From Streptomyces fildesensis (GTDB lineage: Bacteria > Actinomycetota > Actinomycetes > Streptomycetales > Streptomycetaceae): a DNA stretch of 64,000 bases. A model generated the notes under the pieces. It worked only from the letters and a program-made list of their open reading frames with translations. It searched no databases and was not told the origin of the DNA. Below are positions 54,329 through 61,972 of this stretch, piece by piece. The DNA lies in contig NZ_JAAIKO010000005.1 in assembly GCF_016107395.1 (NCBI RefSeq), positions 310,001 through 374,000 of the forward strand, read 5' to 3'. A program made the translations under genes and the position numbers. Every line of letters starts with the position of its first letter. The first letter of the stretch is position 1.

Positions 54329-54488
54329 CGCCGCAGGAAGGCCGGTCGGCGGTCCGTGTGCACCCCGCGCGGACCGCCGCGCCGATACTGTGGGCATTGC
54401 TCCAGAAGTGTGACGGCCCCGCTCGCGGGGAATGGGCCGGTGGAGCCGTTGTGCCCGCGGGGTCGTGTGGGGGAATGAGGGGGCGGTA

Positions 54489-56138
54489 GTGGCAGACGGC
54501 AAGGGGTTCGACTTCAGCCCCGGGGCGCAGGTCCCGCTGATCGGTACGGAGGGCGGCACCGCCGCAACCCAGGCCCTGTCGTCCGCGGCCTATCGGGACT
54601 CCCCGGTCGAGGACCTCAGGAAGGCCAACGAGGACGCGGTCTTCACCCCTCCCCGGCTCTCGCTCTTCGAGCCCAACCTCGGTGAGGCGTTCGCCCGTTC
54701 CGTCCAGGTGCGGATGCTCGGCGCGGCGCGCGGCGAACTCGTGCAGTCCTTCGGTGCCGAACCGCAGTCCGTCGTCGAGCACTGTCTCGCCGCGAACCGG
54801 ATCCGGCAGGAGCGCGACAACCGGCTGACGATCGTGATGGCCGTCTTCGGGCTGCTGTTCCTGCCCGGGGTGCTGATCTGGCTCGGCGCGTTCCAGCTGC
54901 GCAGGTCGCTGGCGAAGGCGCAGGACTCGAAGGCGGGCCCGCTGGGCGCGGTGATCCTGCTGATCGTCGTCGCGTTCGCCGCCCTGCTCATCATCAAGCC
55001 GCCGCTGACCGGGTTCTGGCGCCAGTACCTGCGCGTCATGATGCTCGTACCGGTGCTGGGCTGGTTCTGGGCCAAGCGCATCTGCGAGCAGACCGCGAAG
55101 GACCTGCGCGAGCGCTGGGCCGGCCTGGTCTCCGGCACCGGCGTCGGCGCCAAGATCCCCGAGGCCGTACCGCGCAACCCGAACCAGACCAGGGCGGAGA
55201 CGCTGCGGCAGAGCCTGGCGAAGCTCTCCGCCGAGCAGAACAGCAACGTGGTCTTCTATGCGGGCCCCAAGGGAATACTGGGCATGGGCACCCGCTGGGG
55301 CAGCTGGCAGATGGCCGAGGAGCTGGTGCCACGCGACGGCCTCGCCGAGATCCACCCCTTCCGCAGCTGGGACGTCATCCGCGCCATCCACGACAAACTG
55401 CGGATGCTGGAGCGCGGCCCGCTGCACACCGGAGGCTTCCCCAAGGCGTCGATACGGCACTGGGTCGTCGCCCCGACCGGGGAGAACGCCAAGGCCATCT
55501 CCCGGCCCACCGGCGCCGAGGTCGAGGCGTTCACCGTCAAGGACTTCGAGATCCAGCGGATCTGCAACAACCAGCAGTTCGGCAAGGGCAACCGGCACTA
55601 CCTCGGCATCCAGTTCGTCCTGTGGGACGGCCAGTTGGTGATAACGCTGATGGTCACGGTGACCGTGCTGGCGCAGACCCTGCGGGTCGAGGTGACGGGC
55701 CACGCGCTGGGCCCCGTGCACCCGATCTTCACCGCACCGCCGGCGCCCAACTCCAAGACCGTCTCGCACCCGGTCAAGTTCTGGGAGACCCACACGGTGC
55801 AGCTACCGCTGATCCACCCCGGCGAGGTGGTCCGGCTGGCGGCCCGCGCGCCGCTCACCCGGTTCCCCAGCGTGCTGGACCACCTCGGCGGCACGCTCGC
55901 ACTGCCCGAGCCGTTCGGCCTCCGGCACACCTGGGCGGACAAGCCGTGGAAGCACCGCTTCATGGCCGACGACGCGCTGCGCGCCGCGACCCCGGTGCTG
56001 CGCGCGGTGCACGCCGCGGCGATCCACGTCATGAAGGAGAACGGCGTCGACACCTCGCACTTCACCAACCGCTCGCTGATGCTGAGCGGCCTGGTCCAGG
56101 GCGCGGAACCCCGCAAGGCGGACGCGTACGACGCGTAA
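54489..56138 (+). CDS. membrane protein of unknown function
   Basis: A 549-residue protein. After about 110 soluble residues come two or three transmembrane helices (LTIVMAVFGLLFLPGVLIWL; AVILLIVVAFAALLII; LRVMMLVPVLGWFWA), then a roughly 340-residue soluble C-terminal region with no recognised motif (NVVFYAGPKGILGMGTRWGS, AISRPTGAEVEAFTVKDFEI). The C-terminal part looks folded rather than low-complexity. GTG start with GAGGGGG upstream. It follows the EF-G-like gene by 160 bp and is followed by a large palindrome. Function unknown. Confidence 0.75.
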   Translation: MADGKGFDFSPGAQVPLIGTEGGTAATQALSSAAYRDSPVEDLRKANEDAVFTPPRLSLFEPNLGEAFARSVQVRMLGAARGELVQSFGAEPQSVVEHCLAANRIRQERDNRLTIVMAVFGLLFLPGVLIWLGAFQLRRSLAKAQDSKAGPLGAVILLIVVAFAALLIIKPPLTGFWRQYLRVMMLVPVLGWFWAKRICEQTAKDLRERWAGLVSGTGVGAKIPEAVPRNPNQTRAETLRQSLAKLSAEQNSNVVFYAGPKGILGMGTRWGSWQMAEELVPRDGLAEIHPFRSWDVIRAIHDKLRMLERGPLHTGGFPKASIRHWVVAPTGENAKAISRPTGAEVEAFTVKDFEIQRICNNQQFGKGNRHYLGIQFVLWDGQLVITLMVTVTVLAQTLRVEVTGHALGPVHPIFTAPPAPNSKTVSHPVKFWETHTVQLPLIHPGEVVRLAARAPLTRFPSVLDHLGGTLALPEPFGLRHTWADKPWKHRFMADDALRAATPVLRAVHAAAIHVMKENGVDTSHFTNRSLMLSGLVQGAEPRKADAYDA

Positions 56139-56174
56139 AGCCTGTCCGGCGGATCATGGGCACACCGGACGGAA

Positions 56175-56283
56175 GGGGGCCGGGGCCGCAGGGGTGGGTT
56201 TCGAAATGCTGCCGAGCTATTTGTGGGCCGCCAGGCCCGTAAATAGTCGATTTCGGACCCCTGCCCCGGAGGTCCCGGCCCCC
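56175..56283. repeat. 109-nt composite palindrome
   Basis: Four nested stems share one axis: GGGGGCCGGG (56175-56184) with CCCGGCCCCC (56274-56283), 10 bp perfect; GCAGGGGT (56188-56195) with ACCCCTGC (56257-56264), 8 bp perfect; CGAAAT (56202-56207) with ATTTCG (56250-56255); and CTATTTGTGGGCC (56217-56229) with GGCCCGTAAATAG (56234-56246), 13 bp counting two G-U pairs, closed by a GCCA loop. It fills most of the 169-bp space between convergent genes. It may end transcription both ways, but its length and AT-rich inner stems are unlike the simple GC hairpins elsewhere in this window. Confidence 0.8.
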
Positions 56284-56307
56284 GACCCACGACGCACCCG
56301 GCAGGGA

Positions 56308-56853
56308 CTAGTGCGGCCAGACGTCCGCGAGCATCTTGCGGGTGTCTGCCAGCAGTTGCGGCAGGACCCGGGTGTGCCCGATGACCGGCATGAAGTTGGT
56401 GTCGCCGCCCCAGCGCGGCACCACGTGCTGGTGCAGATGCGCGGCGATCCCCGCGCCCGCCGCCCCGCCCTGGTTCATGCCGATGTTGAAGCCGTGCGCC
56501 CCGGACGCGGTGCGCAGCGCCGTCATCGCGCGCTTGGTCAGCCCGGCCAGCTCGGCGGTCTCCGCCAGATCCAGCTCGGTGTAGTCCGCGACGTGCCGGT
56601 AGGGGACCACCATCAGGTGGCCGCCGTTGTACGGGTAGAGGTTGAGCACCGCGTAGACGTGCTCGCCCCGCGCGACGATCAGGCCGTCCTCATCGGATTT
56701 GGACGGGATCGAGCAGAACGGACATCCGTCGCCGGCCTCCGGGCCGGTCGGCTTGTTCTCACCCTGGATGTACGCCATACGGTGCGGGGTCCACAGGCGC
56801 TGGAACGCGTCCTGCGTACCCACTCCGATCTGCTGCTCCGGCTCACTCGTCAT
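56308..56853 (-). CDS. HIT family protein
   Basis: A 181-residue histidine-triad nucleotide hydrolase/transferase. The triad is HLHQHVVPRW, preceded by NIGMNQGGAAGAGIAAH; CPFCSIP near residue 45 with later His residues probably binds zinc, as in AP4A phosphorylase-like HIT proteins of actinobacteria. ATG at 56851-56853 (MTSEPEQQ) chosen; in-frame codons upstream have no family similarity. It lies downstream of thrS but beyond a strong terminator. Confidence 0.92.
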   Translation of the reverse strand: MTSEPEQQIGVGTQDAFQRLWTPHRMAYIQGENKPTGPEAGDGCPFCSIPSKSDEDGLIVARGEHVYAVLNLYPYNGGHLMVVPYRHVADYTELDLAETAELAGLTKRAMTALRTASGAHGFNIGMNQGGAAGAGIAAHLHQHVVPRWGGDTNFMPVIGHTRVLPQLLADTRKMLADVWPH

Positions 56854-56915
56854 GCCGATCAGCATAGGACTTCCGGGTCCCGCCACGTGGCGCAGGGGCG
56901 GTTCCCACGGCAACG

Positions 56916-56960
56916 CGCAGGCCCCTGGGGTGCGAGTCGCTCGCGCCCCAGGGGCCTGCG
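56916..56960 (-). terminator. terminator of thrS
   Basis: A 21-bp stem with one G-U pair and a TCG loop (left arm 56916-56936, right arm 56940-56960), 15 bp past the thrS stop. It insulates the HIT gene from thrS. Confidence 0.82.
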
Positions 56961-61900: not shown

Positions 61901-61972
61901 TGGGCGATACTGGGATCGAACCAGTGACCCCTTCGGTGTGAACGAAGTGCTCTCCCGCTGAGCTAATCGCCC
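61901..61972 (-). tRNA. tRNA-Val (anticodon CAC)
   Basis: The minus strand folds as a complete cloverleaf: acceptor GGGCGAT / ATCGCCC, D-arm beginning TAGCTCAG, anticodon stem CTTCG / CGAAG with loop TTCACAC (anticodon CAC, reads GTG valine codons), and T-arm with GGTTCGATCC. The discriminator is A; CCA is not encoded. Confidence 0.96.

Follow-up and report, generated by a model that had tools for sequence, protein, structure and literature searches.

The locus and its predicted hairpin

Within the window, that is, the whole 64,000-nucleotide stretch of Streptomyces fildesensis DNA that was analysed, the gap at 56139–56307 is the spacer between two facing stop codons. To its left lies a plus-strand gene of 568 amino acids without a Pfam match (54432–56138), and to its right a convergent minus-strand gene for a HIT-domain protein (56308–56913), beyond which is a threonyl-tRNA-synthetase-like gene. 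Genes were called with a codon-trained caller written for this analysis and do not represent a curated annotation. The spacer carries a hairpin unit on the plus strand (56166–56291), which matches a 127-position covariance model, R1, with 129.5 bits (G000:C427:366166-366291) and of which BLAST locates further copies elsewhere in the genome. At its 3' end, the unit is separated by 16 nt from the HIT-domain stop codon.

RNA folding recovers, at 56175–56283 of the plus strand, a main hairpin of 109 nt made of stacked stems, just as the initial annotation had described it, and the limits of the gap given there are exact. In the predicted fold, the outer stem (56175–56187 with 56271–56283) is followed inward by a 3x3 internal loop, a GC stem, a CGAAAT/ATTTCG stem, a bulge, and the apical stem CTATTTGTGGGCC/GGCCCGTAAATAG with its GCCA loop. 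The bulge is one-sided and comprises the five nucleotides GCTGC (56208–56212); it is conserved among close copies, the stretch ATGCTGCCG being mostly invariant in the alignment of 49 copies described below (A1). The inner stem, CTATTTGTGGGCC-GCCA-GGCCCGTAAATAG (56217–56246, plus strand), contains A/T and two wobble pairs, as judged from the pair counts of alignments A1 and A3. Folding of positions 56100–56340 gives −135 kcal/mol on the plus strand versus −109.75 ± 5.24 in 200 dinucleotide shuffles (z −4.82; none of the 200 as good), and the fold of the minus strand is weaker (z −1.76; 13/200 shuffles as good).

The further 6-bp inverted repeat reported next to the palindrome, GTCCGG (56144) and CCGGAC (56165), spanning 56144–56170, is present. 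It is not a fixed part of the unit, given that its left half lies in a flank largely common to G017 and G024, two relatives whose spacers lack the unit; its right half shares nucleotides with the unit's left end. An Rfam scan found no family above the gathering cut-off at the hairpin, the sole match in the window being a tRNA (61901–61972), and three Rfam miRNA hairpin models scored far below cut-off at 56172–56297. Likewise, a scan of the window for stems with a T-run detected none at the hairpin, and a role in termination is therefore deduced from position. The ordinary stems of the window are exemplified by a long plain GC inverted repeat, GCAGGCCCCTGGGGTGCGAG/CTCGCGCCCCAGGGGCCTGC (56917–56959), just past the threonyl-tRNA-synthetase gene.

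Dispersed copies and conservation of the fold

A BLAST search with the gap against the S. fildesensis genome (9.39 Mb in 470 contigs) gave 58 matches. Once the 16 matches on the reverse strand and a split piece had been merged by hand with the others and a match of 21 bases discounted, 40 distinct places remained (L001–L040), and the 28 best other copies (L002–L029) are 85–93% identical over 106–141 nt. The BLASTN comparison proposed in the initial annotation thus yields about 40 dispersed copies in the same genome, which contradicts a single copy and rules out a single-copy terminator. Model R1 was built from alignment A1, which holds 49 copies (29 from this genome and 20 from relatives). Nineteen of the 68 loci that had been hit were left out, two of them because they were duplicates and 17 because they contained insertions, were truncated or were weak. 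Searches with R1 returned 70 matches at 39 distinct places in the S. fildesensis genome and 65 matches at 35 places in its relative G033 (counted by hand), the matches outnumbering the places because the palindrome is matched on both strands; the match numbers for other genomes in the genus and family searches are accordingly not equal to copy numbers. Taken together, BLAST and R1 locate 41 places in the S. fildesensis genome. The palindrome of the window is best read as a member of a family of interspersed, non-coding palindromic repeats found in the Streptomycetaceae.

To describe how the letters of the stem vary, the hairpin was written as 47 pairs, and changes on both sides were counted per pair and per cell. 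In A1, 92.2% of cells pair, and both-sided changes occur at 23/47 pairs, in 137 cells, compared with 10.6 pairs and 36.9 cells in shuffles (0/500 as high) and with 6–10 pairs and 9–17 cells in slid controls. The 29 copies from the S. fildesensis genome alone account for 18 pairs and 70 cells changed on both sides. Alignment A3, with 32 more distant copies (three GTDB genera included; 4/36 loci left out), shows both-sided changes at 30/47 pairs, in 197 cells, with 95% of cells pairing, values to be read with the fact that A3 was fitted to R1 and hence leans to it. A further alignment of 36 loci, A2, was not used, since it holds both strands of some copies. The covariance analysis that the initial annotation had called for therefore finds structural covariation, in A1 as in A3.

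Several traits of the family go beyond mere complementarity: the one-sided bulge, a G.U pair in the inner stem, and the motif TATTTG...TAAATA. The last is nearly invariant across copies. The G.U pair is found in 48/49 copies of A1 and in 32/32 of A3, and the pair next to it is U.G in 40/42 (A1) and 23/32 (A3). The bulge varies as GCTGC, GCTGA, GCTCC or the like; it is 4–5 nt long, and its letters are partly changed in other subfamilies. G.U is found in 159 cells versus A.C in 17, or 61 versus 17 when the column pairs 65/82, 66/81 and 58/88 are left aside, and the plus strand of the window is therefore the strand kept foldable, a statement that holds equally for RNA and for single-stranded DNA. 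In other genomes, the CGAAAT/ATTTCG stem is swapped for CTGGAC/GTCCAG with no change in architecture. The architecture also stays the same between two size classes, of 127 nt and about 155 nt, the apical parts of the latter being different.

Distribution, gene context and turnover

Matches to R1 are found in 23/35 genomes of the genus at E <= 0.001, and in 29/150 Streptomycetaceae genomes drawn, belonging to 5/17 genera, at E <= 1e-4. When named genome contigs were scanned for exact matches to the core pattern of the window's subfamily, 16 stretches were located, only in Streptomyces sp. H39-S7 and PH10-H1, records of the window genome or of near ones being possibly excluded from that scan; a blastn search of plasmids and phages gave no match to the hairpin unit. 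All 35 places in G033 lie within 1.86–6.37 Mb of its 9.12-Mb contig, and the outer parts are empty. This genome shows no sign of a lagging-strand bias: with the origin assumed at 4.0–5.0 Mb, the proportion of plus-strand to minus-strand copies (23 and 12 in all) is similar to either side.

Between genes, the copies favour one arrangement. Twenty-four of the 40 copies in the S. fildesensis genome lie between convergent genes, 7+7 between co-directional genes and two between divergent genes; of the gaps in the window that measure 20 nt or more, 7/38 are convergent (Fisher p 0.0002). A minus-strand gene on the right ends close to the unit, its stop codon being at a median distance of 14 nt (n=31), and for a plus-strand gene on the left this distance has a median of 70 nt (n=31). 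An orientation set by one neighbour was dismissed, the co-directional gaps being split 7 versus 7. No Pfam family recurs in more than 3/80 neighbours (among the families listed, 25/133), the neighbouring genes look ordinary, and no gene that might be a partner of the unit was found.

At the window locus, the four nearest relatives, G033, G017, G024 and G004, have no R1 match, and their spacers measure 40, 66, 52 and 21 nt, respectively; no unit was seen by eye in the other 25 of the 29 printed genus spacers. At 18 other loci of the S. fildesensis genome, R1 detects the unit in 9/18 in G033, in 3/10 compared in G004, in 1/15 compared in G024 (one of them ending at a contig end), and in 1/17 in G017, the last a weak match of 34.9 bits; these counts do not include L157, where the match is a fragment of 22.9 bits. 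Where G033 shares the unit, the orientation is the same at 8/9 loci, and the stem letters often differ in paired fashion. The exception is L006, where G033 carries the unit in the opposite orientation, at the apex of arms whose counterparts in G024 make up a plain, terminator-like hairpin of 20 bp. At L013, L020 and L027, little beyond the outer stem remains in G033, which by eye looks like the result of interior deletions, and therefore some of the differences are losses rather than insertions. The differences thus suggest gains as well as losses of units. Inspection of the polymorphic loci by eye revealed no target-site duplication; the relatives compared there are other species, and the spacers have diverged. 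At two loci on different contigs, L025 and L036, about 215 nt of the left flank are common at 91% identity and the right flanks are unmatched, the pattern that joint movement or conversion of unit and left flank would leave. The left flank of L013 contains serial short hairpins of the kind GTGACGTGAGGGGGCCGGGACCGTCCCCCTC, which look like the outer stem alone.

Origin and role of the family

Our preferred explanation, to which we assign a probability of roughly 0.7, is that the family is an interspersed palindromic element similar to REP, ERIC and YPAL and located at terminator positions, with a plus-strand hairpin that ends or shields transcripts, and that it spread via an enzyme or protein recognising the folded strand. 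The unit would multiply within genomes and insert at, or replace, intrinsic-terminator hairpins at gene ends. Once transcribed, the plus strand would form a hairpin of ~110 nt that ends or shields transcripts at the convergent pair, and the bulge, wobble pair and internal loop may have been kept as features by which some enzyme or protein recognises the strand in its folded, single-stranded state. A double terminator, one of the roles initially suggested for the window locus, is plausible from position. A variant of this explanation, clearly less probable and put forward tentatively, sees a distinct genome-amplified structured element, whose bulge, G.U and internal-loop motif would be recognised by an enzyme in folded RNA or folded single-stranded DNA. 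This enzyme, not one of the RAYT type, would copy the element into terminator hairpins, with the stems rewritten between subfamilies and genera and the architecture conserved.

In size, shape and place, the family may work like YPAL, ERIC, NEMIS and REP/BIME elements; the likeness to YPAL, ERIC and NEMIS rests on published descriptions of size, shape and position and not on sequence. YPAL (RU-2) of Yersinia is a 168-bp intergenic palindrome, not A+T-rich, with internal inverted repeats and with targets that span or adjoin dyad symmetry (PMC2229807). It belongs to a different phylum and is described there with target-site duplications of 3–26 bp, whereas none was recognised for the Streptomyces unit. 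ERIC (IRU, RU-1) is a 127-bp intergenic repeat present in tens to hundreds of copies, some at the 3' ends of genes (PMC2229807, PMC10969869). ERIC is given there with TA ends, terminal inverted repeats and a target-site duplication; the Streptomyces unit is GC-rich, and neither TA ends nor a duplication were seen. The Correia/NEMIS elements of Neisseria form classes of ~107 and 155 bp and long stem-loops in transcripts, compared with 127 and about 155 nt here, but have terminal inverted repeats and a target-site duplication, and processing by RNase III is reported for NEMIS (PMC2229807). The bidirectional transcript ends of Streptomyces clavuligerus are similar in that they involve both strands at facing gene ends, but in the accessible text they are not described as a repeat family (PMC8269248). 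REP/BIME elements with RAYT are likewise palindromes interspersed at the ends of genes; convergent gene pairs often flank them, and they form mosaics (PMC2817692, PMC3733652). However, REPs are described as being 20–40 bp long with a GTAG or CGTC tag (PMC2817692, PMC3733652), whereas here the hairpin is 109 nt and no Y1 was found in the S. fildesensis genome.

The search for a mover centred on Y1 tyrosine transposases (Y1_Tnp, PF01797). These have 0 matches in the S. fildesensis genome and none in G033 or G023, while the control matched in 5/14 known genomes. Seven of the 35 genus genomes carry Y1, and six of these seven also have repeat matches, including G013, G001, G029 and G010. Y1 is nevertheless not significantly associated with the repeat (6/23 repeat-positive versus 1/12 repeat-negative genomes, Fisher p 0.38), and 17/28 genomes without Y1 have matches. 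No unit was found beside Y1 at E <= 1 in the 12 Y1 loci examined (of 38 Y1 match rows). The genomes seen to hold the CTGGAC-stem subfamily (G013, G001, G029 and G010) all have Y1_Tnp genes, and most of the genus is without. IS110 is matched in 32/35 genus genomes, repeat-free ones included, and is therefore uninformative as a partner. The search for Y2_Tnp is equally uninformative, with no match anywhere, the control included. By eye, a GTAG tag is not recurrent beside the stem, in a flank profile that is rough and in some rows anchored early; in many copies, however, GACG, the complement of CGTC, is found to the left of the stem at a distance of a few bases. Neither a Y1 gene flanked by repeats nor a tagged palindrome of 20–40 bp, the marks of RAYT-type REPs, was found; the marks of REP/BIME elements in the broad sense, namely a multicopy, dispersed, extragenic palindrome at gene ends in mosaic with short repeats, are all present.

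These observations bear directly on the ways in which the family might have moved. That it is a REP element mobilised by a RAYT would agree with the palindromes lying between convergent genes, which is typical of REPs (PMC3733652, PMC1525189), and with repeat matches in most of the Y1-bearing genus genomes, among them the four that share the CTGGAC-stem subfamily. However, the absence of Y1 matches from the genomes of S. fildesensis, G033 and G023, the lack of a significant association with Y1, the 12 Y1 loci without a unit and the length of the hairpin make such mobilisation very improbable, and it was rejected. A true MITE has terminal inverted repeats, is not autonomous and depends for its movement on a DDE transposase supplied in trans by the cell; such an element would account for the copy number and intergenic position of the unit, its size and inverted-repeat ends, and the pattern of presence and absence. 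This is nonetheless a rather unlikely origin: no target-site duplication was seen by eye, and the paired changes reach along the whole stem to the apex, which a transposase recognising the ends would not need. Of the mobile MITE-like or interspersed palindromic unit first suggested, the general idea is borne out by the dispersed copies, the covariation and the presence/absence differences between close relatives, but the strict MITE, with its duplication and a partner transposase, is not.

Other explanations concern the fold. A multicopy family of structured RNAs acting in trans or in cis, by regulation or protein binding, would suit the strand-biased fold, the conserved bulge and the fixed wobble pair, and the earlier proposal of a structured small RNA is supported as far as this conserved, strand-biased structure goes. 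Set against it, and rendering it unlikely, are the patchy occurrence in genus and family, the turnover between close relatives, the lack of a common class of neighbouring genes among the families listed (25/133) and the lack of an Rfam family above cut-off. Palindrome-templated mutation or conversion between copies could, on the other hand, produce paired changes without selection. If so, the copies would be neutral amplified palindromes whose arms are kept complementary by such processes with no selection on the fold, and this is consistent with same-locus copies in S. fildesensis and G033 that differ by whole sets of paired changes and with the outer-stem remnants, which suggest replication slippage at the palindrome. 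Correction of one arm by the other would, however, tend to erase the one-sided bulge and the nearly universal G.U pair, and we give this account no better chance than a MITE. Finally, an ordinary double terminator, resembling other sites only through GC-rich convergence, would explain the position between convergent genes but is refuted by the identity of the 28 best other copies and the model score of the window copy, which leave its probability close to nil.

Interspersed palindromes are well described in Proteobacteria, and none was found described for Streptomyces in the available parts of the articles consulted (PMC4681348, PMC2817692, PMC1525189, PMC8269248, PMC2267715, PMC3733652, PMC2229807, PMC10969869); the word Streptomyces is absent from the accessible main text of three of them (PMC2267715, PMC3733652, PMC10969869). 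In the open-licence PMC literature, the titles and abstracts searched gave no description of the hairpin family, and none of the sequence strings tried was found in a paper; a description may exist elsewhere. A single genome can supply dozens of copies that vary naturally in sequence and preserve the structure; there are also several subfamilies, and at a given locus some close relatives have a copy and others lack it. Such variation makes both the role of long hairpins at convergent gene ends and movement without RAYT directly testable.

Two shorter repeats accompany the hairpin, and the three together resemble the mosaics of REP elements in their arrangement. For the second repeat, whose core is CGCCTGCGGCGGGCTTTCCCC, 18 genomic sites were located (<=2 mismatches), and 15 of these lie to the left of a hairpin copy, no more than about 600 nt away. 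With the core GCGCCTGCGGCGG, it is seen in the same orientation as the hairpin, partly in series, in the left flanks of L011, L019, L025, L028, L030, L031, L034, L035, L036 and L040. The other is a 30-nt mini-hairpin (TGGGGGCACCCCCGGCCGAAGGTTGGGGGA and variants) with 17 sites in the genome (<=3 mismatches), 13 of them inside or within 250 nt of hairpin places; when inside a copy, it occupies the apical loop or the left arm. It was noted at L024, L030, L031, L032, L034, L035, L036, L037, L038, L039 and L040. In G013 and G001 (L082, L084, L227–L232 and L236–L238), the conserved unit is roughly 300 nt long and extends on both sides beyond the hairpin, with further inverted repeats.
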